From Sphingobium lignivorans (GTDB lineage: Bacteria; Pseudomonadota; Alphaproteobacteria; Sphingomonadales; Sphingomonadaceae): a stretch of DNA of 64,000 nt. Positions 37,657-54,215 of the stretch are shown piece by piece; position 1 is the first letter of the stretch, and every line of letters starts with the position of its first letter. The notes beneath the pieces were generated by a model, which saw nothing but the letters and a program-made list of their open reading frames with translations, was not told where the DNA came from and searched no databases. The stretch is from NCBI RefSeq assembly GCF_014203955.1, contig NZ_JACHKA010000001.1:3441001-3505000 (forward strand), in the 5' to 3' direction. Position numbers and translations under genes: made by a program.

Positions 37657-39882
37657 TCAGGCGATGTCGAGCACGAGCGGGCGGCTCAGGCCCCACATGC
37701 CCCGCTGCCGGATTTCCATCCTCAGCGGATGCCCATCGGCAGCGAGCAGGTCCGCGCTCCGCTCGGCGGCACCATAAAGGGTGGCGTGAGTTGACGTTTC
37801 CCATTCCCGCAGGATGATGCCCCCGGCGGTCACCCGCAGCAGATAGGCTTCCGTCTCCTCCCCCAGCGGGCTGTCGGCATGGTCCGACCAGAGCCAGCCG
37901 AGACGGCTGCGCCTGATCCAGCCGATCGACAGGTCCCCGCCCCCGGCGGGCTTTACGCGGCCATGCACCGGAGAGAGCGGCAGCATGGCGATGCCTTCGA
38001 TTGCCCTGTGTGAAACGGCCGGGGTCAGATCGCCGCTGCCGATGGCTTTCAGCGTCAGCAACCGTCCCGCATCAGCGGATGTCAGCGCCACGGCCGCGAG
38101 TCGCGCGGGATCGAGGAAAAGGAAGCGCTCGCCAGCCTCATGGGTGACCGCCGCCCATTCCGTACCGCGCCAGCCGCGGATCAGGCGGGACAGGCGATAG
38201 CGCCGGGGCGCCAGCGGTTCGGCCTCTCCGAACAGCAGCATTTCCTGCCCAATCTGGCAGGGATTGCCGCCGCTGATGAGCGCATCGTCCTCGATCGAGG
38301 TCAGCGCGTCGGCCGCATTGTCGAGTTCCACCTCGACGTAGCTGCGGCGATCGATGCGCCACGCCGCGCCGGCCGGCAGCGCGGTCAACGCCGTGCCGAT
38401 CACGGCCCGCGGCGCGGTGCGGCCGATCGGCTCGTCGCCCGGCGGATCGGTAAGGGTCCGGAACAGCGCAGCGCGGCGCCAGCCTGCGTCGGCGCCCGTC
38501 GCTGCGACGCAGACCTGCGGCGCCGTGGCCAGCGTCGCCCCGTCCGGCGGCCATTCTACGATTGCGAGGCTGGTCGGCCCCTGCGCCAGATCCGGCTCGC
38601 GCACCACGGCGCCCGGATCGCCTGCGGATGCGTCCGGCCGCGCACCCGCCCGCACCGCGCGCAGCGTCAGGCGCACGGCCATGTCTTCCCAGTCGCTCGC
38701 CTCGACGAGCCAGCGCCCCGGTTCGCCCTCCAGCGCCACGATGTCGCCCGGGGCAAGATCGAGTGCGGTCCAGTCCATGGCGCGCGTGCAGCGGCTGCGC
38801 TCGCGCCCCGCGGCGCGCAGCCGCTGCCCGGCGAGTGTGCGGGCCTGCGTCGCGGTCAGTACGGCCGGGAGATCGAGGCTCTCCTCGCGCAGCCCCGGCC
38901 CCGGCCGTTCCGCCGACTGGCTGCCGATCTGGAAGTCGCGGTCGGGATCATGATGGCGGATGGTGAGGCGTGCCGGCACGGTCTCGATGGCGTCCCGGCG
39001 CTTCGTTCCCTCTTCCACGGCCCGGCCATCCAGACTTCGGATCGCGTGGGCGCGCGCCAGCGTCCGGCCCGTCCAGGTGCCGCGACCGAGCGCGGCGGCC
39101 CCTTCCCGCTCCCGCCAGCGCATCCCGAAGACGTCCGTCAGCGGCGTCACCGTCTCGCGCAGGTTGCTTCCCTCGGCGGCAAAGCCGGCAAGATGCGGCT
39201 CGTCCTCGTCTCCGGCATGGGTCACGGGCTCGCCCGCCAGATCGGAGAGGATCGACGCGAGGCCCGGCGGCGCGGCGTCCGCGAACAGCTCGAAGGTCAG
39301 CGAGGGAATGCGGTTGCCGAAATCGGCAAGGTCCAGTCCCTCGAACAGCACATAGGCGCAGCCCCGGCAGGCCGGCGCCGCCGCGATGCCCACATCCGCC
39401 GCGATCAGCGGATCGACCGGCTGGTCCTCCCCGCCATGATGGATGCGAAAGGCGCTTACCGGCGATTTCCAGTCGCCTGCCGCGCCGCGCAGCAGGTTAC
39501 CGTCCGCCCAGATGCGGCCGATGCCGGCGATCGGACGGGAGGAAAGCGCCACCGCGAAGCTTGCCGAATAGCTGTAGCGCGTGATGCTCGGCTGGCCCTT
39601 CCCGCCCCCGCTGGTGCTGCTGCTCTCGATGAGATCGGTGGACCAGATCACCGTGCCCGCCACGCGCACCGTCCCGTAGATGCGCGGAATGCGCGCGCCA
39701 TATCGGGAGGTCTGGACCTGCAGGTCGTTCAGGCGCGGGCCGGATTGCGGGCCGGGGCGAAAGATCAGACCGTCAATCGCCTGCCCCGCCACCGCGCCGA
39801 TGGCGCCGCCCATGGCCGCGCCGATCGCACCCAGCGGTCCGCCGATCACGCTGCCCAGCGCCGTCAGAACAAGTGTCGCCAT
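37657..39882 (-). CDS. GTA host-specificity / phage tail protein (gp15-like)
   Basis: A 741-aa tail-tip protein. It opens with a Gly/Ala-rich hydrophobic segment (GSVIGGPLGAIGAAMGGAIGA) and then the conserved stretch RLNDLQVQTSRYGARIPRIYG found in GTA gp15 and related phage tail-tip proteins. A mid-region region binds as the hub (SLTFELFAD) and the rest is beta-rich. It is much shorter than the R. capsulatus gp15 (about 1300 aa) and shows no obvious TIM-barrel section; a barrel-like section sits in the DUF2460 gene instead (an inference). Confidence 0.8.
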   Translation of the reverse strand: MATLVLTALGSVIGGPLGAIGAAMGGAIGAVAGQAIDGLIFRPGPQSGPRLNDLQVQTSRYGARIPRIYGTVRVAGTVIWSTDLIESSSTSGGGKGQPSITRYSYSASFAVALSSRPIAGIGRIWADGNLLRGAAGDWKSPVSAFRIHHGGEDQPVDPLIAADVGIAAAPACRGCAYVLFEGLDLADFGNRIPSLTFELFADAAPPGLASILSDLAGEPVTHAGDEDEPHLAGFAAEGSNLRETVTPLTDVFGMRWREREGAAALGRGTWTGRTLARAHAIRSLDGRAVEEGTKRRDAIETVPARLTIRHHDPDRDFQIGSQSAERPGPGLREESLDLPAVLTATQARTLAGQRLRAAGRERSRCTRAMDWTALDLAPGDIVALEGEPGRWLVEASDWEDMAVRLTLRAVRAGARPDASAGDPGAVVREPDLAQGPTSLAIVEWPPDGATLATAPQVCVAATGADAGWRRAALFRTLTDPPGDEPIGRTAPRAVIGTALTALPAGAAWRIDRRSYVEVELDNAADALTSIEDDALISGGNPCQIGQEMLLFGEAEPLAPRRYRLSRLIRGWRGTEWAAVTHEAGERFLFLDPARLAAVALTSADAGRLLTLKAIGSGDLTPAVSHRAIEGIAMLPLSPVHGRVKPAGGGDLSIGWIRRSRLGWLWSDHADSPLGEETEAYLLRVTAGGIILREWETSTHATLYGAAERSADLLAADGHPLRMEIRQRGMWGLSRPLVLDIA

Positions 39883-39886
39883 GTCT

Positions 39887-40300
39887 CTAGCTCCCTTCCT
39901 CTCGCGGCGCGCATCGCCAGCGCCCGAGCAGCGGCCAGGGGGATGGCGGCGGCATCAGCACGGCGCGGCCAAGCCCGGCATGGGCATGGACCAGCCCCCG
40001 GCGGGTCTCGATCATGAGATGAAGCTGCATCGGCCCGCTGCGCACCAGCAGGATGTCGCCCGGCCGGGGATCGTCCGCCGGCAGCAGGCCGGCCTCGCGC
40101 AGGGCGGCGGCGGCATGGTCGGGCGCGGTTCCCCGCAGCCGGTAGGCCGGCAGGCGGTGCACCGGCACGCCCGCGCGCCGCAGCGCCAGCGCCGCGAGCC
40201 CCACGCAGTCCAGGCCGGTCCGCTCGGAGCGCCCGTGCAGCCGGAATGGCGCACCGACCAGCGCCAGCGCTTCGGCCGCGATGGAATCGTGAAGGGTCAT
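39887..40300 (-). CDS. GTA NlpC/P60 peptidase (gp14-like)
   Basis: A 137-aa cysteine peptidase of the NlpC/P60 clan. The nucleophile Cys32 is in GLDCVGL, and a catalytic His candidate lies in MQLHLMIE. In GTA and siphophage tail tips this domain trims peptidoglycan during DNA entry. It follows the hub gene by 3 bases. Confidence 0.88.
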   Translation of the reverse strand: MTLHDSIAAEALALVGAPFRLHGRSERTGLDCVGLAALALRRAGVPVHRLPAYRLRGTAPDHAAAALREAGLLPADDPRPGDILLVRSGPMQLHLMIETRRGLVHAHAGLGRAVLMPPPSPWPLLGRWRCAPREEGS

Positions 40301-40303
40301 CGT

Positions 40304-41125
40304 TCAGCTCCCGGGATAGCGCGTCAGCAGGTCCATGCCCGGCAGATGCGGCTCGCCGCGAAAATTGGCGGCATTGGCGAAGCGGGCGGCGCAGGTGGCG
40401 AGGCGCTTGTCGCAGCCTTGCGTCAGCAGCGCCCGGCTCCCCGTGGCGACCGGAAAGGGCGGCGGTTCCGACAGGAAGAGACGCGCGTCATCCTGATCGA
40501 TGATCGTCTGCACCAGCCCGGCATTCGCGCCATCGAGCCAGCGCAGGTTGCCGAAGGGATAGGCGCCCGGGCCCAGTCCGGCGCATGTCACGGCATCGTC
40601 CGCCACGTCTTCGATTACCACGACCATGCGCAGCGGCCGCAGGTCGACCCGGCAGGCCCGGTCGCCAAGCTGCGCCCGGCAGGTCGGGCTGGTGACTGGC
40701 GTCACCGGCCTGTCGAGCATCGCCCCGATGTGCGAGCGCAGCGCCACCGAATAGCTTTCGCCCTGCTGCTCGACGCTGCCCAGCGTGCCGCGCGCCAGCT
40801 CCAGCCAGAGTTCGCCGGGCCGCGCCCAGTCGGTGAGATGCAGCAGCAGCGTCGCGCCGTCCCATCGCCCCGCGTCGAGGTCATCCTGCGTGATCGCGGC
40901 GGAGCTGAGCGCGCCGCGCACGTCGGTCAGTTCCGCCGTACCGTCGCCGCCGCGCAGCAGGGCGCCGGGTACAAGGCCGGGCGCGGGGCGATAAGTGAGC
41001 CCGTTCATGGTGATCGGTCGGTCATGGCTGGTGAGGCCAAGCGTTACGCCGTCGCGCCGTTCCAGCCGCCAGCAGAAGGCGAAGGCGCAGAGCGGCCCGG
41101 CGAGCATGTCGGTCAGCGCGGTCAT
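40304..41125 (-). CDS. DUF2163 domain-containing tail protein (gp13-like hub)
   Basis: A 273-aa protein of the DUF2163 / phage BR0599 family, a tail-tip hub component. It begins MTALTDMLAGPLCAFAFCWRLERRDG, and the C-terminal half has QGCDKRLATCAARFANAANFRG with three Cys that typify the family. The ATG overlaps the previous stop by 4 nt. Confidence 0.88.
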   Translation of the reverse strand: MTALTDMLAGPLCAFAFCWRLERRDGVTLGLTSHDRPITMNGLTYRPAPGLVPGALLRGGDGTAELTDVRGALSSAAITQDDLDAGRWDGATLLLHLTDWARPGELWLELARGTLGSVEQQGESYSVALRSHIGAMLDRPVTPVTSPTCRAQLGDRACRVDLRPLRMVVVIEDVADDAVTCAGLGPGAYPFGNLRWLDGANAGLVQTIIDQDDARLFLSEPPPFPVATGSRALLTQGCDKRLATCAARFANAANFRGEPHLPGMDLLTRYPGS

Positions 41126-43452
41126 TCGCGGATTTCCACCAACGGGACCGAGGGCACCGCGCCTGCCGCGAAGGTCTCCCGGTCGATGTCCAGACGATCC
41201 TCCGCGAACCGCACCGGCACGTCGAACAGGAAGCCCGCGGTCACGCTCGTGCCCGCGGCCGGGGCGGTCTCGAAAGCGATCTGGCCGAGGCCGGCATGAT
41301 GCCACCCGCCCGCCTGCTCGACCCCGTCCAGCGCGACCCGGATCGTGCCCTCTTCCGGCCGGGTGATGAAGCGCACCTGCGCGTCCGGTCCTTCGCCATA
41401 GCGCTTGAGCAGGCGGAAGTGCGCCGTCGCGCCGTCGCCGGTGCCGAGGCTCTGGTCGGTCGCGCTCACCATGGCGCCGGATGACGCGGATGCATGATCG
41501 AAGGGATCGCGGAAACGAAAGCCCCGCGCCGCGCCTCGTCGCGCCCGGAAGAAGGCGATCAGCGTCGCGATGTCCGCTTCGGAGCGCACGCCCGGTCCGG
41601 CGTCGAAATGGAGCCGCGCGTCCGCCCACTGGGTGCTGCGCTGTTCATGGCCGGACACGCTTTCGATCACGCGCGTCGAGAAGGTCGGCGCCACTTGCGC
41701 CCGGCGGCCGATGTCGAGCGGAAAGGCGATGTCGTCGAATGCCTGCACGTCGGCGTCTCCCTGAAGATCGAAGAATGTGAAGCCGTCCCGCGCGACCTGC
41801 GGCAGTGCCCAGATGAATGTCGCGGCATGGCCGCGCTCCATCGCTGCTTCCGCCGCCGCCGCGATCCGCGACCAGGCGGTCGCCGTCTCGTCGGCCGCCA
41901 GCCCGGCGGGCACGAAGCCGGCGAGATAATGCTGTGCACCGGGGGGATAGCCGAGCCGCGCGTTCATCGCCGCGCGTCCCGCCGCCGAGAGCGCCACGCG
42001 CCCTTCCGTCACCCAGTCATAATCCTCGATCTGCAGCCGGTCGAAGGCCGGCGCCGCCCAGCCGACCGGCACGTTCGCCCGCTTGAGCTCCGGCGCGGCA
42101 GGGTCGAGCACGCTCGGGAGATAGACCAGCAGCAGCGTCTCCGCTTCGATCGCTTCGTCCAGCACCGCTTCCCGCACCGTCGCCGTGGAGGCCGCGAGCA
42201 ACGCACCCGCTTCGTCGAGCAAGGCGATCTGCGCCGCGTCGAGCGGGCCACGCACGGTCGGGATTTCCGGTGGCGCGCCGCCCAGCGCCAGCCGCGCGGC
42301 ATCGTCATAGAGGCAGGGCCGCCCGTCCGGCATGATCCACCACCAGGGCTCGCCGATCTGGAACCGCACCGCCAGCCCCGCGTCGCGCACGATGGCGACG
42401 AAGGCGCGGGCCACTGCCGCCAGATAGGCCGTCGCGCCGTCATGCGCCGGGGAGAGCAGGGTCGATGGCGGCACCCATCCGGTCAGGGCCGGTGCCCCGT
42501 CCCAGGCCCGCTGCTTCCAGGCCGCCGGGCAATAGGCATCGAACAGCTCGTATGAGAGCGAGAGGATGAGCCCGAACCCCAGCGCCACGCAGCGCGCCGC
42601 GAAGTCCGCGTGCCAGCGCGCGCAGGGCATCGCCAGAGCACCGCCGGCCAGACTCGCCTCGAAGCCGTCGGAGACGGGCGCGAGCCGCATATAATGGCTC
42701 ATGCCGACATAATGATTGATCGCGCCGCGATAGCCCAGCGCCAGCGCCTGCCGCAGCAGCCGCTCGGGCGTCTGGTTATAGGTGTCGTCATAGCCAGTCG
42801 CGATGGAAAGGCCGTGCTCGGGCACCATGATGTCCCCGATGGCGAGCACCGAACCCGGGCCGTCGCAGCGCATGCCGCTGATCTCGACCCAGGCCTCGGC
42901 CGCTTCCGGGAACAGCGTGTCGCCCGCGTCATAAGCCGCCGGTACGAGGGAAATGAACATTCGGTCGATGTCGCCGGGATAGACGGCGTCGGCTTCGTCG
43001 GGCAGCAGGAAACCGCCATTGAGCGCATCGAAATCGAGCGTGATCCGCGCATCTTCCGGATCGCCCGCCGCGTAGTTCCACAGCCGCACATACCATGAGC
43101 GGGGCACGCCGGAGGCATCCCGCCCCTCGATGGTCAGGGTCGGCCCGTGGACCGCATCCAGCGGCTTCATGCCTGCGCTGCGCCAGCGGAAGGACAGCCG
43201 GCAACCGCCATGGTCCCGCCGCGTCTCGTAGCGCAGCAACGGATGATCCCAGCGGTCCTCCGACTCCCAGATGAGGCCCGCAAGATCACCCGAGCCGTGG
43301 AACACCGCGTCGATGCGCAGTCCGTCCGCGCCCTGCGTCACGACCGAGGCCATCATCGGCCGGGGGAAATCGACCGTCCAGAACGGCGGCGAGAAGCGCT
43401 TGATGACGCCGCTCTCCTGATGGCGCCGGGCATCGGCCAGCCAGTAAGCCAT
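41122..43452 (-). CDS. DUF2460 tail protein with large N-terminal glycoside-hydrolase-like region
   Basis: A 776-aa protein. The last about 210 residues (STRVIESVSGHEQRSTQWADARL, RRGAARGFRFRDPFDH) are DUF2460, the GTA gp12-type distal-tail fold normally about 210 aa. The first about 560 residues contain ALGYRGAINHYVG, LGFGLILSLSYELFDAYCP and IGEPWWWIMPDG, which read like a TIM-barrel hydrolase or tail-sheath-like barrel. This is therefore a fusion relative to R. capsulatus. GGAAGGA precedes the ATG. Whether the barrel is catalytic cannot be seen. Confidence 0.8.
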   Translation of the reverse strand: MAYWLADARRHQESGVIKRFSPPFWTVDFPRPMMASVVTQGADGLRIDAVFHGSGDLAGLIWESEDRWDHPLLRYETRRDHGGCRLSFRWRSAGMKPLDAVHGPTLTIEGRDASGVPRSWYVRLWNYAAGDPEDARITLDFDALNGGFLLPDEADAVYPGDIDRMFISLVPAAYDAGDTLFPEAAEAWVEISGMRCDGPGSVLAIGDIMVPEHGLSIATGYDDTYNQTPERLLRQALALGYRGAINHYVGMSHYMRLAPVSDGFEASLAGGALAMPCARWHADFAARCVALGFGLILSLSYELFDAYCPAAWKQRAWDGAPALTGWVPPSTLLSPAHDGATAYLAAVARAFVAIVRDAGLAVRFQIGEPWWWIMPDGRPCLYDDAARLALGGAPPEIPTVRGPLDAAQIALLDEAGALLAASTATVREAVLDEAIEAETLLLVYLPSVLDPAAPELKRANVPVGWAAPAFDRLQIEDYDWVTEGRVALSAAGRAAMNARLGYPPGAQHYLAGFVPAGLAADETATAWSRIAAAAEAAMERGHAATFIWALPQVARDGFTFFDLQGDADVQAFDDIAFPLDIGRRAQVAPTFSTRVIESVSGHEQRSTQWADARLHFDAGPGVRSEADIATLIAFFRARRGAARGFRFRDPFDHASASSGAMVSATDQSLGTGDGATAHFRLLKRYGEGPDAQVRFITRPEEGTIRVALDGVEQAGGWHHAGLGQIAFETAPAAGTSVTAGFLFDVPVRFAEDRLDIDRETFAAGAVPSVPLVEIRE

Positions 43453-43532
43453 GGTTTTTCCTTCCGATAGCGCAAGTGAATCGACGCGGACCGCACGCTT
43501 TCCGGATGGCGATTTTCCGGAAAGGGTCGCCG

Positions 43533-44126
43533 CTATTCCATCAGCGCACCGCGCACCGCCCGGGCCACTTGCCGCGCACTGCGGGCGAGCGCGCGCGGCG
43601 CGTCCTGCCCGGTGCCTTGGACGGTGATCGCCACGCGCACGTCCCGCGCGGCGCCCGGCCCCCCGGCCCCGGGCAGGATTTGCCCGCTGCTCGTCGGCAG
43701 GAACAGCTCGGGCCCGCGCTCGCCGACCAGATAGGCGCGGCCGGGCGCGACCGGCCCGCCGGTCGCCCGGCCCGGCAGACCCAACAGTCCGGCGACCAGG
43801 CTCGTCCCCAGTCCCGCAAGGCCGGCCTGCCCCGCGCTGCCGCCGCCCAGCGCCGCGTTCATGCCGTTGCGCACGGCCGCCTGCGCGATCTGCGCCATCA
43901 CGGAGAGCGCGACCTTGCCCAGATCCTCGAAGCCGAACCGCCCCGTCCTCACCGCGCGCAGCAGGCCGGCTTCGATCGTCCGGCTTGCCCGCTCGGCGCC
44001 GGAGGCAAGCTGGGCGATCTCGTCGCGCAGTCCGGCGGCCTCGCCGCGCGTGCGCGCCAACTCCGCCTGCGCCGTCTGCCAGTCGCCGTCATTCGGCCAG
44101 TCCTCGTCCATCGCGTGCTCATTCAT
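43533..44126 (-). CDS. Short tail tape-measure protein (gp11-like)
   Basis: A 197-aa protein: N-terminal coiled coil (QTAQAELARTRGEAAGLRDEIAQLASGAE), then an Ala/Gly-rich hydrophobic region (SAGQAGLAGLGTSLVAGLLG), as in tape measures. Tape-measure length sets tail length, and about 200 aa implies a very short tail tube, as in GTA particles. It overlaps the preceding chaperone gene by 8 nt (ATGAATGA). Confidence 0.8.
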   Translation of the reverse strand: MNEHAMDEDWPNDGDWQTAQAELARTRGEAAGLRDEIAQLASGAERASRTIEAGLLRAVRTGRFGFEDLGKVALSVMAQIAQAAVRNGMNAALGGGSAGQAGLAGLGTSLVAGLLGLPGRATGGPVAPGRAYLVGERGPELFLPTSSGQILPGAGGPGAARDVRVAITVQGTGQDAPRALARSARQVARAVRGALME

Positions 44127-44334
44127 CGGGATGTGCCTCCATCAATTGCCCCAGCGAGGCCCGGTCCAGCGGATTGCCCGCCCCCACCGTGCCGCTCGCA
44201 TCGCCGATCGCCCGCAGCGCGGCGAAGGCGTCGGCCAGTTCGTCAGGCGTGGCGCGCCAGAATTCGTCCGGCCGCCAGCCGAGCAGCAGGCCCGCCTGTC
44301 CCGCGAGCCGTCGCGCCGCCTGCGCAAAGCTCAT
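44119..44334 (-). CDS. Phage tail assembly chaperone-like (DUF2376-type)
   Basis: A 71-aa protein beginning MSFAQAARRLAGQAGLLLGWRPDEFWRATP; the tryptophan pair WRPDEFW is characteristic of the small GTA tail-assembly protein (rcc01693-like). It overlaps the previous stop by 4 nt. Confidence 0.75.
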   Translation of the reverse strand: MSFAQAARRLAGQAGLLLGWRPDEFWRATPDELADAFAALRAIGDASGTVGAGNPLDRASLGQLMEAHPDE

Positions 44335-44645
44335 TGCACGCCGGCCAGCGCCTGCCGCAGGATCGCGCGGATCGCCGGCATGGCGGCGCCCAGTCCCTGC
44401 GCCAGCAGCGCCTCGCCCAGCGTGGCCCGCGCCATCGTCTCCGGCCGGTCGACAAGGCAATGCCAAAGCAGCGCTTCCATCTCCGCGAGCGTCAGTCGCC
44501 CTTCGGCCGCCCGGTCGACCAGCGCCAGCAGCGGCCCCGTCTCGCTTTCCGCCGCCACCAGCGCGGCGAAGCTGGGGCGCACCGTCATCAGCCGGTCGCC
44601 GACGCACAGCGTCGCCTCGCCGCGGGCAGGATTGGCGCCGCTCAC
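44331..44645 (-). CDS. GTA tail chaperone protein (gp10-like)
   Basis: A 104-aa alpha-helical protein. The gene-transfer-agent family signature lies in the N-terminal half (GDRLMTVRPSFAALVAAESETG) followed by LTLAEMEALLWHC. It starts with ATG overlapping the tail-tube stop by 4 nt. Confidence 0.78.
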   Translation of the reverse strand: MSGANPARGEATLCVGDRLMTVRPSFAALVAAESETGPLLALVDRAAEGRLTLAEMEALLWHCLVDRPETMARATLGEALLAQGLGAAMPAIRAILRQALAGVQ

Positions 44646-45049
44646 AGCGCGCTCACCGCGCCGGAACTTTCCAGGCTGAGCGTGTAGGTCCGCTCGCCAT
44701 TATAGTCCCCGGCATAGTCGAGCCGCGTCACGAGGAAGCGACCGCGCAGCCGCTCCCCGCTTTCAAAGCTCAGCTCATAGTCGTCGATCGCGCCGCCCAG
44801 CGCATGGTCGCGCAGCCGCACTTCCGCTGCCGAGCCGGTGAAGATGCCCGCGCCCGACACGCTCACCGAGCGTACGCCCGCGCCCGGCAGCAATTGCCGC
44901 CAGCCCCCCGAATCCTTGGACGTGATGTTCACGGCCTCGCCATTCACGGAGAGCTGCGTCGCGCGCAGCCCGGCGATGGTCGCGTAAGTCACCGGCGCAC
45001 CGCCGTCGCCGATCTTGAGCAGGAATGCACTGCCCTTCTCCACTGCCAT
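44642..45049 (-). CDS. Major tail (tube) protein (gp9-like)
   Basis: A 135-aa tail-tube subunit of the TP901-1 type: MAVEKGSAFLLKIGDGG, followed by NGEAVNITSKDSGGWRQLL, SGAGIFTG and GRFLVTRLDYAGDYNGERTY. Ribosome-binding site AAGGAAG lies 7 nt before the ATG at 45049. The longer upstream frame lacks coding character. Confidence 0.88.
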   Translation of the reverse strand: MAVEKGSAFLLKIGDGGAPVTYATIAGLRATQLSVNGEAVNITSKDSGGWRQLLPGAGVRSVSVSGAGIFTGSAAEVRLRDHALGGAIDDYELSFESGERLRGRFLVTRLDYAGDYNGERTYTLSLESSGAVSAL

Positions 45050-45098
45050 GAGGTCTTCCTTTCGCTTCGTGATGATGTGAGAGAGCCGGGGCGCTTCG

Positions 45099-46134: not shown

Positions 46135-47274
46135 TCAGCTTTCGGCGAACTTCATGAGCTTGATGGCCTCGCTGTTCGACACCGCGCCGCCGATCCGCTT
46201 GACGGCATAGAAGTGCACGAACGGCTTGTTGGTGAAGGGGTCGCGCAGGATGCTCGTCTCGGCGCGCTCGGCGATCACATAGCCATGCGTGAAATTGCCG
46301 AAGGCGATCGAGAGGCTGTTCGCGGCGAGATCGGGCATGTCTTCCGCCTCGATCACCGGATAGCCGAGCAGTGTCGCGGGCTGGCCTGCCGCGAGCCCCG
46401 GCTGCCACAGGAACGCGCCGTCGCTGGTCTTGAACTTGCGGATGCGCGCCAGCGTCGCCGAGTTCATCACGAACGCCGCGCCCTGCCGGTAAGGCGCCCG
46501 GAGCGACTGGACGAGGTCGATCAGCCGGTCCTGCGGATTGCTCGCCGGGAAGCCGCCGGCCGCGCCCGAGGGCACATATTGCAGCGTGCCGAAGGCGCGC
46601 GCGCCGTCCGCCTGGGCGGCGGTGGCGTAGGTCAGGAAGCCCTTGGGCTTGTTCGTGCCGTCCCCGCCGACGAAGGCGGCGCCTTCCGCCCTGGCGAATT
46701 CCTGCGCGATTTCCTGCGCCAGCCAGCCTTCCACGTCGAACTGCGCGTCGTCCAGCATCGCCTGGCTCGCGGACGGATTGGCGAACAGCTCGCCGGAGGG
46801 CGGCGCGATTTCCTCGAAGGTCGGCGTCGCCGTCTCGGCGCGCGCGCCGGTCTCGGATGCCCAGCCGGACACGACGCCGCCGGTCGTCACCAGCTTGCGA
46901 TAGCCCGCCGAGCCGGTGCGAACGACATTGGCAATCGCGCGGATGGGCGAGATGGACTTGAGCGTCGCCTCGATCATCTCGTCGATCTCGCGCGGTACGG
47001 CATAGCCGCCACTGCCGCCGCTCGCACCGGAGAAGCTCTTCAGTTCCACGCCGGCCTCGATGCCCCGACGCAGATAACGCTCGGTGAAGGCGGCTCGCGC
47101 CGGATCGGTCTCGCTGCCCTTGGCGCCATCGAGCGGCGGGCGGGCGGCCCTGGTCGCCTGCGTCCTCACGGCATCGTCGAGCGCATCCATGCGCGCCTCG
47201 ATCCCGGCAATGCGGTCTGCCTGCAGCACCGCGTCGAAGCTCTCCTCGAGCGCATCGGCTTTCACTTCCAGCAT
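46135..47274 (-). CDS. HK97-type major capsid protein (gp5-like)
   Basis: A 379-aa major head subunit. An N-terminal helical scaffold (Delta) domain (MLEVKADALEESFDAVLQADR, about residues 1-70) is followed by the HK97 core with GGYAVPREIDEMIEATLKSISP, TASQAMLDDAQFDVEGWLAQEIAQEF-like spine helix, and GFLTYATAA. AAGGAGA precedes the ATG. The Delta domain is presumably cut by the neighbouring protease. Confidence 0.94.
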   Translation of the reverse strand: MLEVKADALEESFDAVLQADRIAGIEARMDALDDAVRTQATRAARPPLDGAKGSETDPARAAFTERYLRRGIEAGVELKSFSGASGGSGGYAVPREIDEMIEATLKSISPIRAIANVVRTGSAGYRKLVTTGGVVSGWASETGARAETATPTFEEIAPPSGELFANPSASQAMLDDAQFDVEGWLAQEIAQEFARAEGAAFVGGDGTNKPKGFLTYATAAQADGARAFGTLQYVPSGAAGGFPASNPQDRLIDLVQSLRAPYRQGAAFVMNSATLARIRKFKTSDGAFLWQPGLAAGQPATLLGYPVIEAEDMPDLAANSLSIAFGNFTHGYVIAERAETSILRDPFTNKPFVHFYAVKRIGGAVSNSEAIKLMKFAES

Positions 47275-47392: not shown

Positions 47393-47866
47393 TCAGGGCC
47401 CGCCCCGCCGGCCCGCCGTCCCGGCAGGGAGAGGCACTTCCCCCTCCACCGCATGCACGCGGGCAAGCGGCTGCATCGGGTGCGTGACGAGGCTCACTTC
47501 CACCAGGTCGAGCGCATCCAGCCGCCGGGGCTGCGCGCCCTGCGCAGCGACCACGCGGTAGCCGAACGACAGGCCGTCGATCCGCCCCGCGCGCAGCAGC
47601 GCCGCCGCGCGCCGTCCTGTCTCGCTCGCGCCGTCGATCGTGCCGATCACCCGCAGCCCGCGCCCGTCTTCGCTTGCCGTGTCGATCCGCCCGACGGGCT
47701 GGTCCGCCCGATGCTGCCAGAGCAGCGGCAGGCCGTCCTTGCCGCGCCGGGCAAGGCTCGCCGCGAAGGCACCGGGGCTGATGACGTCCCCGCCATTGTC
47801 CGGCCGCGCGAAGATCGCGGCATAGCCCGCGAAGCGCACCGGCGCGCTGCCCTCGCCCGCCCTCAT
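47393..47866 (-). CDS. HK97-type prohead protease (gp4-like)
   Basis: A 157-aa serine protease of the U35 / prohead family. The catalytic His52 is in LLWQHRAD and the Ser100 in GLSFGYRV. It overlaps the portal stop by 4 nt. It cuts capsid and scaffold during head maturation. Confidence 0.92.
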   Translation of the reverse strand: MRAGEGSAPVRFAGYAAIFARPDNGGDVISPGAFAASLARRGKDGLPLLWQHRADQPVGRIDTASEDGRGLRVIGTIDGASETGRRAAALLRAGRIDGLSFGYRVVAAQGAQPRRLDALDLVEVSLVTHPMQPLARVHAVEGEVPLPAGTAGRRGGP

Positions 47867-49008
47867 GCGCCGGCCGCCTCGATGCCCAGCATCGCCTTCT
47901 TCTCTTCCGCGCTCAGGAAATCGGCCGCGCCGACCTGTTCCCAGAGCAGCGTGCGGTCATCGACCAGGGCGGGCACGCGGTTTATGTCCACGCCGAGCGT
48001 AAGGCCCGGCATGAAGTCGCCCAGCCCCTGCGCCAGCGCGCCGAGGATCTTGTCCGCCAGCGGCAGCACGCTCTGGCGCCAGAGCGCCTTGTTGGCCTCG
48101 CGGTAATTGGAATAGGTGCTGTCGCCCGGCAGGCCGATGAGCACTGGCGGCACCCCGAAAGCAAGCGCGATGTCGCGCGCCGCGGCGGCCTTCAATTGCA
48201 CGAAGTCCATGTCGGCCGGCGACAGGCTCATCGATTGCCAGGAGAGGCCGCCTTCCAGCAGCATCGGTCGCCCGGCATTCTCCCGCCCCTGGAAAGCGCT
48301 TTCCAGCTCCGCCCTCAGCCTGTCGAACTGGTCGGAGGAGAGCGCGCTGCCATCCTTGGGATCGTAGACCAACGCGCCGGAGGGGCGAGCGGCATTGTCC
48401 AGCAGTGCCTTGTTCCAGGCCGTCGCCGCATTGTGGATGGCGACGGCGCCCGCCGCCGCGCACAGGCAGCCCAGCCCCAGAAGATCGTCAGCCGGGTTGA
48501 GCGCCTTCACATGGATCACCGCCGTCCGCCCGGCGGCGTCCTCGCCCGGGTAGCGCAGCAGCCGCTCGCCCGCCCGGTAGCGATAGGCGACGGGCCAGCC
48601 CTGCATGTCCTGCTCGATCGTGATCCTGTCCGGGCGCAGCGCATAGAGGCCGGCGGGCCGTCCGTCCGGGCCATGGCTGATCTGCGCATAACCATTGCCA
48701 TGGACGAGCACATGCGCGGCGAGCGTCTCCAGCAGTCCCTGCCCCGCCGAACGATGCTGGACGAGGCGCAGCGCGTCCCGCGCATCGCCGGCATGGTCCG
48801 CCGCCGCGCTCAGCGCCGCGCTGCCGACGGCCTCGCTGACCAGCCGCAGCGCGCGCTGCGCCACGGGATTGACGGTCACCGCCGCCTTGAGCTGCGCCGC
48901 ATAATCCTGCGGCCAGGCGCCCGAGCCCGAGCAGCCCGGGCCGATCCACGCGCGCGCCAGCGGTGGTCGCGCCTCTGCCGGCGCGGCCTTGCGTCCAAAC
49001 CATTTCAA
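47863..49008 (-). CDS. Phage portal protein (gp3-like, HK97 type)
   Basis: Dodecameric DNA channel subunit of 381 aa. Family landmarks: AVTVNPVAQRALRLVSEAVGSA, LAAHVLVHGNGYAQI, and a C-terminal half with ALAFGVPPVLIGLPGDSTYSN. The start codon is TTG at 49008: AAGGAG lies 7 nt upstream and the frame reads MKWFGRKAAP. The upstream in-frame sequence is not coding. It follows the LuxR gene by 177 bases. Confidence 0.92.
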   Translation of the reverse strand: MKWFGRKAAPAEARPPLARAWIGPGCSGSGAWPQDYAAQLKAAVTVNPVAQRALRLVSEAVGSAALSAAADHAGDARDALRLVQHRSAGQGLLETLAAHVLVHGNGYAQISHGPDGRPAGLYALRPDRITIEQDMQGWPVAYRYRAGERLLRYPGEDAAGRTAVIHVKALNPADDLLGLGCLCAAAGAVAIHNAATAWNKALLDNAARPSGALVYDPKDGSALSSDQFDRLRAELESAFQGRENAGRPMLLEGGLSWQSMSLSPADMDFVQLKAAAARDIALAFGVPPVLIGLPGDSTYSNYREANKALWRQSVLPLADKILGALAQGLGDFMPGLTLGVDINRVPALVDDRTLLWEQVGAADFLSAEEKKAMLGIEAAGA

Positions 49009-49185
49009 TGATCGTCTCCTTCTCCGGAGCAGAGGAATTTGAGGCAGGCAGAACCACTGTCGGCCGGGCGAAAGCCCGCGCGAGGCCCATGTGGGCCGTC
49101 CGTCATGGATTCCGGTCTCTATGAAAAACGTCCGCAGCCACCCTTCACCGCGCCGCGCGGTTCGCAACCGCAGCGGCAGCGCAGG
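49009..49185 (-). other. Gap between LuxR gene and portal gene
   Basis: A 177-base stretch of normal GC. It carries two dyads: GGGC-GAAA-GCCC near 49067-49078 and GGCCCATGTGGGCC near 49083-49096. They may be a terminator or an operator. No clear promoter is visible. Confidence 0.4.
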
Positions 49186-49893
49186 TCAGGCCGCGATCAG
49201 CCCCAGTCCCACGCCTTTCACGGCCGCGGAGGTCCGATCGGAGACTTCCAGCTTCTCGTAGATGCGCCGCATGTAGGTATCGACCGTTCCCGGCGAGATG
49301 GCGAGAATCTCGGCGATCACATTGTTGCTCTTGCCGCGCGCCACCCAGTCGAGGATTTCCTTCTCCCGCGTGGAGAGCTGCCGGTCACGCACCACCTCGT
49401 CGGCAAACAGCGTGCAGATGCGCAGATGCGCCGCCTGCGCCGCAAAGTGCAGCAGGGAGAGGTGGCTCGGGCTGATGTCGGTCTGTTCCGTCATCTTCCC
49501 GATGCCGACCACCGCGTTGCGGCTGTTGGGGCCATAGCAGGGCAGCGAGAAGCCGTCGGTGAAGTCGATCGTCCTCATCGCGGCCAGGAACTCGCGTTCC
49601 TCGCCGGTCAGTTCGCTGTTCTTCCAGATGTCGCTCCAGCGGATCGGCATGCCGGCGGCCAGCGCCGCCCGCGGCACGATGTCGAGCCGCTGGAAATCGA
49701 ACGAGAGATAAAGCTCGATCTCGCTTTTGGAGAAGCCATATTGCAGCGGGACGCTGGCGGGCAGATTGGTCGTCGTGCGTACCCAGTAATAGCTCACCCC
49801 GCCGAAGCCGTGGCGATGGTAATAACGGGTCATCTGCCGCCAGAGCAGCGGCAGGGTCGTAGCACCCGCAATCCTTTTCAAGATGTCGTCCAC
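49186..49893 (-). CDS. LuxR family transcriptional regulator inside the GTA cluster
   Basis: A 235-aa protein. The N-terminal part (about residues 10-160) resembles an autoinducer-binding domain: YLSFDFQRLDIVPRAALAAGMPIRW keeps Tyr, Asp and Trp at typical positions, but the usual DP motif reads DI and the first pocket Trp is not evident. The C-terminal LuxR HTH is at about 172-225 (STREKEILDWVARGKSNNVIAEIL, SPGTVDTYMRRIYEKL). The start codon is GTG at 49893, with GGAGGAG 5 nt upstream. No luxI-type synthase is in the window, so it is a LuxR solo. It sits between terminase and portal genes on their strand. Confidence 0.85.
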   Translation of the reverse strand: MDDILKRIAGATTLPLLWRQMTRYYHRHGFGGVSYYWVRTTTNLPASVPLQYGFSKSEIELYLSFDFQRLDIVPRAALAAGMPIRWSDIWKNSELTGEEREFLAAMRTIDFTDGFSLPCYGPNSRNAVVGIGKMTEQTDISPSHLSLLHFAAQAAHLRICTLFADEVVRDRQLSTREKEILDWVARGKSNNVIAEILAISPGTVDTYMRRIYEKLEVSDRTSAAVKGVGLGLIAA

Positions 49894-49990
49894 CCCGGGC
49901 TCCTCCCGCAGCCCTGCAGTCCGGCGATCGTCCGCCCTTCCCGTCCCAAAAGCAAGTCAATAACCGGAGCGGCGCCCGGTACGTCCCGTT

Positions 49991-51373
49991 TCAAAGGCGC
50001 CTGAGCCGGGCTTTGGCTCCACCCGGCGCGAGGAGGTCGGCGAGGCTCCACACCAGCGCGTCCGCCCGGTCGGGCGAGCGGCCCGGTCCTTCATAGCCTC
50101 CGCCGATCATCATGCTACAAAGCTGGTCCTCCAGCGCGGCGAACAAGCCCGCGTGGCGCACCCGTCCAGCCTCATAGGCGGCCGCCACCGGCTCGGCCCG
50201 CGCACTCTTGCCGCGCGAGGCATGGACGAGACGGACCGGCAGCGCGATGTCGGCCGCGCGCAGCACGGCCGCCACCATCGCACCGCCATTATTGGCCTCG
50301 GCCACGACCCTGTCTGCGCGCCACCGCGCCGCCGCGGCAGCCGTCGCCTGCGCCCAGCGTTGCGGGCTCGCCTGTTCGACTGTCGCGTCCTCCAGCACCA
50401 GCGCCCTGCCCTCCGCATCGAGCGCCGCCACCACGATCCCGCAGGCGTCGCCATGCTCGCTTGCCGGCGGGTCGACGCCCACGACCACCCGCACGAGATC
50501 GCAAGGCGAAGGCACCGGCCCTGCCAGGCGGCATCGGTCCAGCAGGTCGCGCGTCCAGAGCGCGCCCGGCGTATCGAGCAGCAATTCCCCGTCCAGCTCC
50601 TGCCGGCCGAGCCGCGTGGCCGCGAAGCTGCGGTCCATTTCCCGCACGAACTGCCGGGGCAGCATGGCGCGGTTGTCGCGCATCCGGCCCTGCGTCACGG
50701 CGACCGTCGGGTCGCTCGCCAGCCGTCGCACCAGCGCCACCGGGCGCGGCGTCGTCGTCGCGACGATCCTCGGGCGCCGGCCCAGCCGCAACCCCATCAC
50801 CAGATTGTCCCAGGCGCGGATGCCGCGCGGCCATTTGGCGATCTCGTCCGCCCAGCCATGGCTGTGCTGCGGCCCGCGCAGCGTATCCGGCTCGCTCGCG
50901 CCATAGATCGTCGCACGCGCGCCGCCGGGCCAGACGAGCTGGCGCAATGCGGGGTGCCAGTGCGGCCGCCGGTCGGCCGGCGCGATCGCCAGCAGGCCGC
51001 TTTCGCCTTCCACCATGATGCTGCGTGCTTCGTGCAGGCTGGCCGCCACCAGCGCGATGCGGGCCGTGTCGTCCGCTTCGGCGATGGCGCGCACCCATTC
51101 CGCGCCGGCGCGCGTCTTGCCGAAGCCGCGTCCCGCCATGATGAGCCAGACGAACCACGCGCCGGGCGGCGGGAGCTGCGCCGGGCGCGCCCGGCAGGCC
51201 CAGCCCTCCATCAACGCCCGTCGCGTGCCTGCGCCGAGCCGTTCGAGCGCATCCTGGCGCTTCACCCGTTCCAGCCAGGCAACGCGTTCGTAAAGGGAAA
51301 GCGCGTGTAGACCCGACGGGCCTCCGGACCGGAGCCGGTGTGCCCGGCCCTTTGGCTGCCGGGCGTCAGTCAC
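49991..51373 (-). CDS. Terminase large subunit (gp2-like)
   Basis: DNA-packaging motor and nuclease of 460 aa. Walker A is LIMAGRGFGKTRAGAEW (about residues 78-93), and RIALVAASLHEARSIMVEGESG follows. The nuclease half has VVGVDPPASEHGDACGIVVAA with two Asp in the RNase H-like fold, then EANNGGAMV. The start is GTG at 51373, overlapping the small-subunit stop by 8 nt. The open frame extends upstream in the small-subunit gene without codon support. Confidence 0.92.
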   Translation of the reverse strand: MTDARQPKGRAHRLRSGGPSGLHALSLYERVAWLERVKRQDALERLGAGTRRALMEGWACRARPAQLPPPGAWFVWLIMAGRGFGKTRAGAEWVRAIAEADDTARIALVAASLHEARSIMVEGESGLLAIAPADRRPHWHPALRQLVWPGGARATIYGASEPDTLRGPQHSHGWADEIAKWPRGIRAWDNLVMGLRLGRRPRIVATTTPRPVALVRRLASDPTVAVTQGRMRDNRAMLPRQFVREMDRSFAATRLGRQELDGELLLDTPGALWTRDLLDRCRLAGPVPSPCDLVRVVVGVDPPASEHGDACGIVVAALDAEGRALVLEDATVEQASPQRWAQATAAAAARWRADRVVAEANNGGAMVAAVLRAADIALPVRLVHASRGKSARAEPVAAAYEAGRVRHAGLFAALEDQLCSMMIGGGYEGPGRSPDRADALVWSLADLLAPGGAKARLRRL

Positions 51374-51959
51374 GTTCCGCCTCACCCGATTCCATCTCGT
51401 CCGGTTCAGACTCGCCCGATTCAGCCTCGCCTTCCGCCATTGCGTCCGCGTCGCCGGAGGGCTCCTGCAGGCGCTCATGTACCACGTCCATGTCCTGGAG
51501 CAGCCGCTCCACCACCGCTGCTGCATCCGCGTCCTCCGCGTCCCCGCCAGCCGCCGCCGCGCCGCGATCGGGTCGCGCCGATCGATGCGCCTCGAGCAGC
51601 CGAAGCCCCAGCATGGGCGCCGGGGCACGAGTCAGTTTGATCTGCTTCACGCTGCTGGTCGCGCCGTCGAAAACCACTTCGGTCCGCACCGTGCCTTCCA
51701 GCGCCTGCAGCATCAGCGACAATTCGAGTTCGGAATAGCCATCGTCCACCGCCGCGCGCCATTGCCATGCGAAGATCTCGTCCCGTGCCTTGAGTTCGTA
51801 GGCGCCCGAGCGGCTGACGCCTGCCGCGCGTGCGGCCGCCGCCACATTGGGATAGGCGGCGAGCGCGCTCAGGAAGAGCGACCTGCGCCGCCCCGACCAG
51901 CGAGAGCGGCGGCCCGGACGCGCGGCGCGACCGGCCTTGCCGTCTTGGCGATCCTTCAT
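51366..51959 (-). CDS. Terminase small-subunit-like DNA-binding protein (gp1-like)
   Basis: A 197-aa protein, first gene of the block. An Arg-rich start (GRAARPGRRSRWSGRRRSLF) is followed by a helix-turn-helix NVAAAARAAGVSRSGAYELKARD, resembling phage small terminase or its GTA homologue gp1. The C-terminal third is very acidic and low-complexity. The function follows from its position next to terminase large. Confidence 0.78.
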   Translation of the reverse strand: MKDRQDGKAGRAARPGRRSRWSGRRRSLFLSALAAYPNVAAAARAAGVSRSGAYELKARDEIFAWQWRAAVDDGYSELELSLMLQALEGTVRTEVVFDGATSSVKQIKLTRAPAPMLGLRLLEAHRSARPDRGAAAAGGDAEDADAAAVVERLLQDMDVVHERLQEPSGDADAMAEGEAESGESEPDEMESGEAERD

Positions 51960-52037: not shown

Positions 52038-52066
52038 TCTCTAACCAGATAGCGTCACGATGTCAA
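52038..52066 (-). promoter_or_regulatory. Candidate promoter of the GTA cluster
   Basis: On the minus strand, TTGACA (52066-52061) and TAGAGA (52043-52038) are spaced 17 nt. This gives a start near 52031, about 70 nt upstream of the first GTA gene. The -10 matches only 3 of 6 positions. No CtrA-type box was seen here. Confidence 0.35.
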
Positions 52067-52085
52067 CAGAAAAGTTCCAAATAGG

Positions 52086-52799
52086 TTAGTCTGGCCGCCG
52101 CCGATACCGGAAATACCAGACCTCATGCCCTTTCTGGCGCGCCTTGGCTTCATAGCGTGTTTCGGGCCAGCCGCCGGGGCGCTGGAGGAAGTCGCGCGGC
52201 GTCTCGCACAGCCATTCGAAGTCGGTCCGCCCGCGCATCGTCATCAGCGCCCAGCGCAGATAGACCGGATGATCGGTGCCGAAGCGGAATTCCCCGCCCG
52301 GCTTCAGCTTGGCGGCAATGAGGTCCACCGGGCCCTTGTTCATCATCCGCCGCTTGGCATGGCGCGCCTTGGGCCATGGATCGGGATGCAGCAGGTAGAC
52401 GAAGCTCAGCGCTCCGTCGGGAATGCGCGCCAGCACGTCGAGCGCATTGCCCATGTGCAGGCGGACATTGGCCAGGTGCCTGTCGCGCACATGCCCCAGC
52501 GCCCCCACCACACCATTGAGGAAGGGCTCGCAGCCGATGAAGCCGTGATCCGGCAGCATGTCCGCCCGATAGGCGAGATGCTCGCCCGATCCGAAGCCGA
52601 TCTCGAAATGCAGGGGCCGCTCGCCAAAGGCACTCGGGCCGAACAGCCGCGTCGCGGTGATCTCCCCCTCCTCCGGCACGCTGATCGCCGGCAGCAGCTC
52701 CTCGACCAGCGCCTGTTGCCCGGCCCGCAGCTTGTGGCCGGACTGGCGCCCGTAAAGACGGTTGAGCGTGGTCGGATCGCCGGTTTTGAAAGCAGTCAT
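52086..52799 (-). CDS. trmB: tRNA (guanosine(46)-N7)-methyltransferase
   Basis: Methylates G46 in the variable loop of many tRNAs with SAM. It has 237 aa. The SAM site is [14 protein letters not shown], and the catalytic Asp and partner residues lie in [15 protein letters not shown], followed by [12 protein letters not shown]. The start ATG at 52799 ([17 protein letters not shown]) follows TAGGAA. It stays in the same open frame as the frameshifted metK upstream, but a separate start is clear. Confidence 0.94.
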
Positions 52800-52957
52800 C
52801 GGCGCGTTCCTACTCCCTGCCGCGCCGAGCGCAAGGGGGGCCGGGCGCCGCCCCGTTCCCACGCGGCCTTGCGCCTGCAAAGGAAAAGGCGCCCGCATGG
52901 TCGCGAGCGCCTTCCTGTCAGTCTGCGATGCCGCGCTCCCCGGCGAGGGAAGCAGCG

Positions 52958-54167
<1,210 letters not shown>

Positions 54168-54215
54168 CGGGGAACGCACCTTTCTTCTAGCGGCTCTGAC
54201 ATGGCCGCGGTTGAT

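Follow-up and report, generated by a model that had tools for sequence, protein, structure and literature searches.

What is a LuxR-type regulator doing between the packaging and portal genes of a GTA? The question is raised by one gene in the window, by which we mean the whole stretch of 64,000 nucleotides of Sphingobium lignivorans DNA that was analysed. An earlier account made from the letters alone, called here the sequence-only reading, had described this gene as a LuxR solo with a good ribosome-binding site and flanking dyads, set in an otherwise purely structural cluster, and had proposed that it could tie particle production to a host or foreign signal. Taken as a whole, that account is partly supported. 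We find that luxR is conserved and under selection in one part of the Sphingobium GTA lineage. No study of how the GTAs of sphingomonads are turned on is known to us; the analysis offers luxR as a named candidate regulator, together with a conserved promoter on which it can be tested.

The luxR gene and its host cluster

The gene, its neighbours and the DNA elements discussed below are collected in Table 1. The GTG start of luxR was confirmed, and the sequence GCGGGAGGAG, read by eye as its ribosome-binding site, lies 6 nt ahead. The product carries an N-terminal autoinducer-binding domain (Pfam Autoind_bind, PF03472; 3.2e-17, 62.9 bits, curated cut-off 23) and a C-terminal GerE HTH (PF00196; 6.8e-19, 67.7 bits, curated cut-off 23.5), which is the architecture of the QS-domain LuxR family. 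It is co-directional with terL upstream and with the portal, prohead protease and HK97 major capsid protein (MCP) genes downstream, and no luxI is adjacent; open reading frame, Pfam domains and neighbours thus bear out a LuxR solo on the same strand as the packaging and portal genes that flank it. The claim that it has no LuxI partner stands locally but not for the genome (G000, 4,207,152 bases in one contig), where a LuxI is encoded next to a different LuxR-type match (G000:C1:2689697 and 2689047).

Table 1. Position of luxR, its neighbours and associated DNA elements in the window
Feature	Position	Strand	Remarks
luxR solo, subclade A of the Sphingobium GTA-linked LuxR clade	49186..49893	-	235 aa; GTG start
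Promoter-like element of luxR	49927..49956	-	CTTGCTWTTG-N10-GGC..; by eye
terL, GTA large terminase	49991..51628	-	longest ORF
Probable small terminase (TerS) ORF	51366..51959	-	place upstream of terL conserved in related loci; named by position, no Pfam hit
GTA operon promoter	52038..52088	-	TAACC-N5-GG, then TTGACA-N17-TAGAGA; -10 assigned by eye
luxR-portal spacer	49009..49185	-	177 bp
Portal protein	47863..49008	-	likely TTG start after GGAGAAGGAGA ribosome-binding site (by eye)
Prohead protease	47393..47866	-	
HK97-type major capsid protein	46135..47274	-	
GTA tail genes	37657..45052	-	tail tube, GTA-gp10, ORF without Pfam match, tail sheath/DUF2460, hub, NlpC/P60, Rcc01698-like

By its gene content the cluster is RcGTA-like: terL, portal, protease, MCP, gp10 and gp12-gp15 types follow each other in one direction, with GTA-gp10, DUF2460, Rcc01698_C, phiJL001 Gp84 and NlpC/P60 domains among the products. 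The true start of terL is probably near 51301, since most homologues align only from about residue 110. In the gp12-like GTA protein (41122-43452, minus strand) DUF2460 occurs together with two sheath domains, a non-contractile tail-sheath N domain and one of TIM-barrel type. MetK and a TrmB-like methyltransferase share one open frame of 697 aa (52086-54179, minus strand), and L159:2327-4402 likewise gives a continuous match. In L033, L034 and L042 the two match separately, possibly owing to a change of frame around MetK residue 391. Sphingobium sp. SYK-6 (G073, NC_015976.1), which is listed under the same species as the window genome, also carries luxR. The two LuxR proteins are 100% identical, and the SYK-6 GTA proteins are mostly 95-99% identical to those of the window, with one ORF at 87%.

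The flanking dyads did not hold up, being no more than chance would give. RNA folds of three pieces flanking luxR had z scores of 0.12, -0.11 and -0.65, none of them significant, and the terminator-like sites between 47700 and 52300 numbered 3 against 2.2 expected, again with none significant. Could the luxR unit nevertheless act as DNA, its promoter and a terminator setting up a roadblock that separates terL from the structural genes? Terminator-shaped stems followed by T runs do stand after luxR in L159 and L035, at fold z scores of -1.57 and -0.96 that many shuffles equalled, and in Caulobacter a terminator, terGTA, lies after gtaT and is anti-terminated by GafZ (PMC11150451, available text). 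As the window holds no significant terminator and selection on luxR acts at the protein level (see below), we regard such a roadblock as very improbable.

Recurrence, inheritance and erosion

The sequence-only reading had asked whether related GTA loci carry the same insertion, and would have called luxR a chance insertion had it been absent from all of them. The insertion recurs. LuxR relatives (E<=1e-20) were present in 21 of the 94 Sphingobium genomes scanned; two of the 21, at 34-35% identity, represent another, non-GTA LuxR group, and in the remaining 19 genomes, two of them of the window species, luxR is at the GTA every time, with no member of its clade found away from the GTA in these carriers. 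The order terL-luxR-portal is seen in 14 of the 19 (including G094, with a truncated portal) and luxR-portal without an upstream terL in four, one of these at a contig edge. In Sphingobium xanthum (L042) luxR lies beside an MCP remnant, and terL, portal, protease and most of the MCP gene are deleted. Capsid matches (E<=1e-20) were found in 83 of the 94 genomes, about 88%, a count that includes a few, such as G076, matching only a 43% identical capsid. Among IMG/VR contigs, luxR was present in 27 that are partly non-independent (L221, L241 and L243 appear to duplicate strains in the count); the GTA gene that follows luxR is portal in 27/27, and terL precedes luxR in 24, the other three contigs beginning at or shortly before luxR. 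We read these contigs as GTA clusters called viral, because a Sphingobium-type GTA portal adjoins luxR. An origin of luxR as a phage gene was considered and set aside, the phage collection having given 10 records at 24-48% identity. The place between terL and portal is therefore a conserved position of luxR and not a chance insertion.

The linkage in all 19 genomes and all 27 contigs favours the view that LuxR is a built-in GTA regulator, through which a non-canonical or foreign signal would tune GTA output, via a promoter within or ahead of the cluster or via altered read-through from terL to portal. The same view gains from the finding of tandem luxR copies (A, then a strongly diverged C) that fill the terL-portal junction in S. 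sufflavum (L041:5303-7253) and in IMG/VR L238:1000-2519. Against it stands the absence of luxR from most Sphingobium GTAs.

The GTA-linked LuxR proteins form one clade with a Novosphingobium group (support 100/100). Within it we distinguish subclades A, which includes the window protein, B, whose members are 40-45% identical to the window protein, and C. Support is moderate for A (97/86 and 94/88), 100/100 for C and only 83/77 for B+C. A C-type luxR stands directly ahead of an A-like portal in L246. In a FastTree phylogeny of the GTA itself, built from terL, portal and MCP and with a poorly supported root (0.21), the A-bearing loci (6 of 9, plus L041) form a clade with support 1.0, as do the eight B-bearing loci, and 55 luxR-lacking loci group together with support 0.86. 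Since A and B loci each form a clade in the GTA tree, luxR has been inherited with the cluster for long. The five Novosphingobium genomes with a related LuxR have no GTA gene within 10 kb of it. In L036-L039 (scanned: L038) that gene adjoins F420 biosynthesis genes (CofH-like, CofD, CofE, F420 oxidoreductase) and dehydrogenases, and in L040 these F420 neighbours are absent; perhaps the Novosphingobium LuxR solo may control an F420-dependent pathway.

luxR is under purifying selection. Its pairwise dN/dS was 0.03-0.39 among the nine subclade-A genes (36 pairs), and the ORF is intact in all nine genomes. Medians from six genomes are similar (luxR 0.20, portal 0.22 and MCP 0.16 over 15 pairs each, terL 0.29 over 6 pairs), so that the constraint on luxR is comparable to that on the GTA genes. 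These values bear on the idea that luxR is a neutral passenger, a gene of host origin that entered the GTA and was kept there with no function of its own. Such a history would suit a junction that accepts varied genes, as well as the absence of luxR, whether by loss or from the outset, in most of the genus. The dN/dS and the intact ORFs already weigh against it, and the persistence of luxR across the A/B/C divergence and the conservation of its upstream element (CTTGCTWTTG-N10-GGC.., seen by eye in 8/9 subclade-A genomes) also speak against it, so that we consider it improbable.

Five genomes have lost terL or other GTA genes and kept luxR. GTA-type terL is absent from G028, G075, G097 and G034 (the last a 450-contig draft), where only 50-54% identical matches occur elsewhere, and in G094, G075, G097 and G034 GTA genes show deletions or split matches. 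The retention of luxR beside eroded GTA genes favours a role that is not tied to particle production and argues against a built-in GTA regulator, the lesions being too few for a statistical demonstration that luxR is specially spared. We had also considered the intact luxR of S. xanthum as proof of a GTA-independent function. This argument is weakened because the remaining GTA tail genes of that locus are full length too, and the intact gene beside the missing terL could just reflect recent decay. Erosion of the GTA is a repeated event in luxR-bearing Sphingobium (L042:9708-10953; L033; L035), and the deletions end near luxR, on either side.

The junction, its promoters and the ligand pocket

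What occupies the place between terL and portal when luxR is missing? We fetched 58 luxR-lacking Sphingobium GTA regions and used 57, dropping L172 as too short. Both terL and portal are present in 52 of the 57, separated by gaps of 503-5320 bp; the gaps of L159 and L160 are those of luxR loci and lie outside the 52. In 51/52 of the gaps (within L142-L199) there is a gene for a secreted-looking protein of some 112 aa, and the one member scanned matched a glycine zipper below threshold (17.2 bits, cut-off 25). A nitroreductase-type gene family occurs in 12 of the 52, its one scanned member matching nitroreductase at 80 bits. luxR and the 112-aa gene were found together in no locus among 84, nor among 59. 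In 20 regions from outgroup genera of the order, terL and portal are 41 bp to 1.6 kb apart with various other ORFs or nothing between them, and neither luxR nor the 112-aa protein had a match in these gaps. According to the available text of PMC11150451, the corresponding interval of Caulobacter holds gtaQS and four IHF sites. Given such varied occupants, we take the junction to be an accessory-gene site of which LuxR is the occupant in one lineage. The description of the cluster as otherwise purely structural thus fails in this genus, since accessory genes occupy the junction in almost every Sphingobium GTA that was examined. On this view the junction is a place where domesticated particles acquire accessory genes, and Sphingobium offers natural luxR-plus and luxR-minus GTAs for comparison.

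The promoter of the GTA operon is marked by TAACC-N5-GG-N10-TTGACA, at 52061-52088 upstream of the TerS ORF, where 0.00 matches are expected by chance. By the strict pattern this motif was found in 9/9 A loci, in the one A+C locus, in 4/6 B loci (not in L043 and L044), in 27 of the 57 luxR-lacking Sphingobium loci and in 9/20 outgroup loci. Extra matches came to 3 in total, across three locus groups, and the reversed control gave no match. Of the 30 luxR-lacking loci with no match, some end short of the promoter; others (L143, L145, L156 and L168), like the B loci L043 and L044, include the TerS ORF with the DNA ahead of it and yet have no strict match. Because GTAs with and without luxR share the motif, it is independent of the presence of LuxR, which again tells against a built-in regulator. 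We had entertained the TAACC-N5-GGTTA-like dyad before the GTA -35 as a LuxR operator and dropped it, as the motif is also found in luxR-lacking Sphingobium and in outgroups. This motif, with the composition TAACC-N5-GG, about 10 nt, TTGACATCGTCACGCT, is a recurrent feature of GTAs of the Sphingomonadales, including L201-L219, and the conserved -35/-10 spacer resembles in its position the GafZ-binding element of Caulobacter. The element upstream of luxR was tried as the mark of a regulon and likewise abandoned: six genomes gave one match each, all at luxR, with none in the control, and as the pattern was written from these loci only the absence of further matches is informative. Its strict form was found in 5 of the 16 IMG/VR contigs that hold the region, whose LuxR proteins are at least 68% identical.

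The sequence-only reading had further proposed a degenerate acyl-homoserine-lactone pocket. The conserved residues considered here, in TraR numbering, are W57, Y61, D70, P71, W85 and G113 in the pocket and E178, L182 and G188 in the HTH, a list that draws in part on PMC4288048 and PMC8553950. The window LuxR departs from the full set of six pocket and three HTH residues of a QS-domain LuxR: the HTH residues are kept 3/3, and in the pocket W57 is replaced by E and P71 by I, but Y61, D70, W85 and G113 are kept (4/6), so that the proposal of degeneracy holds in part. W57 is replaced in all 24 aligned members of the clade, a count that leaves the IMG/VR proteins aside, by E or Q in nine SYK-6-like A proteins and by V, L or I in the rest. 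Y61 is kept in 24/24, D70, W85 and G113 in 23/24 each and P71 in 7/24; the C copy of L041 also lacks the equivalents of W85 and G113. Non-GTA relatives keep W57 in 7 of 10 cases. Judging from these alignments, the loss of W57 throughout the clade likely reflects a changed ligand. A LuxI match is absent from 8 of the 19 luxR genomes, the other 11 having one or more, and LuxR therefore does not require a conventional AHL made by its own cell. An AlphaFold2 model of LuxR has a mean pLDDT of 88, and its best solved matches include RhlR, SdiA and QscR.

Between A and B the HTH is 78% identical and the sensing domain 30%, as if the DNA target had stayed and the signal had changed, which would suit a built-in regulator; however, the same trend is seen against non-GTA relatives (63% and 26%). 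Support for GTA control also comes from other systems, as quorum sensing controls the GTA of Rhodobacter capsulatus via GtaR and GafA (PMC6363796, in the text available) and in Caulobacter GafZ overcomes a GTA terminator located in the junction (PMC11150451, likewise). All in all, a built-in GTA regulator seems to us possible and rather doubtful.

The explanation that we favour over it, with about even confidence, is that luxR is a self-contained LuxR solo unit lodged in a permissive accessory junction of a domesticated, vertically inherited GTA. luxR would be expressed from its own promoter, and its product would bind a ligand other than a canonical acyl-homoserine lactone, autoregulate via the element just upstream of the gene and serve mainly host genes. 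Once the GTA is switched on, transcription across the cluster may co-express luxR. It may be that the junction tolerates inserts because GTA transcription is anti-terminated there, as the available text of PMC11150451 describes for Caulobacter and as we suppose by analogy for Sphingobium. An accessory regulator fits better with the absence of luxR from most GTAs, with a promoter motif shared with luxR-lacking GTAs and with the survival of luxR beside broken clusters. The element ahead of luxR, the stems behind the gene in L159 and L035 and the Novosphingobium relatives with no GTA nearby also speak for it. What counts against the self-contained solo is that the GTA linkage in 19/19 genomes through deep divergence, together with the tandem duplication, would also be explained by a role in GTA control; the strict form of the element in just 5 of 16 IMG/VR contigs and the low fold scores of those stems count against it too. 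One could also imagine that the A, B and C proteins at the junction recognise the same DNA target, answer different non-AHL signals and gate transcription from terL to capsid, so that particles would respond to host, substrate or neighbour signals; we think this rather unlikely. Should LuxR control the GTA, the making of particles would depend on a receptor that the cluster itself encodes.

Comparison with known systems

In the literature searched, which was seen in part and whose scope did not extend to preprints and most subscription papers, we found no report of a LuxR gene within a GTA cluster. The window gene shares with LuxR solos the Autoind_bind-GerE order, the lack of a luxI beside the gene and a variant pocket, and differs from them in its fixed place within a GTA cluster. 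One unpaired LuxR was listed for Sphingobium sp. SYK6 by Gan et al. 2015 (PMC4288048), and this is probably the gene studied here; the words 'phage', 'terminase' and 'portal' do not occur in the available text of that paper, which thus gives it no phage or GTA context, nor do 'phage' or 'terminase' occur in that of the survey PMC4338825.

In GtaR/GtaI of R. capsulatus, too, a LuxR-type protein is linked to a GTA, and to one that belongs to the same family. GtaR is part of the GtaR/I system (PMC10883770, available text) and binds the gafA promoter (PMC6363796, available text), whereas the window luxR has no adjacent luxI and lies inside the structural cluster. In the GTA of Caulobacter crescentus the same terL-portal junction carries extra genes (gtaQS) and regulatory DNA (the IHF sites and terGTA), and the regulators GafY and GafZ act on the upstream promoter; 'luxR' has 0 occurrences in the available text of that paper (PMC11150451). 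As in the window LuxR, a lactone contact is changed in the plant-associated LuxR solos of the OryR/PsoR type. These carry Y61W, according to the available text of PMC4288048, whereas the Sphingobium GTA LuxR keeps Y61 in 24/24 and has lost W57 instead.
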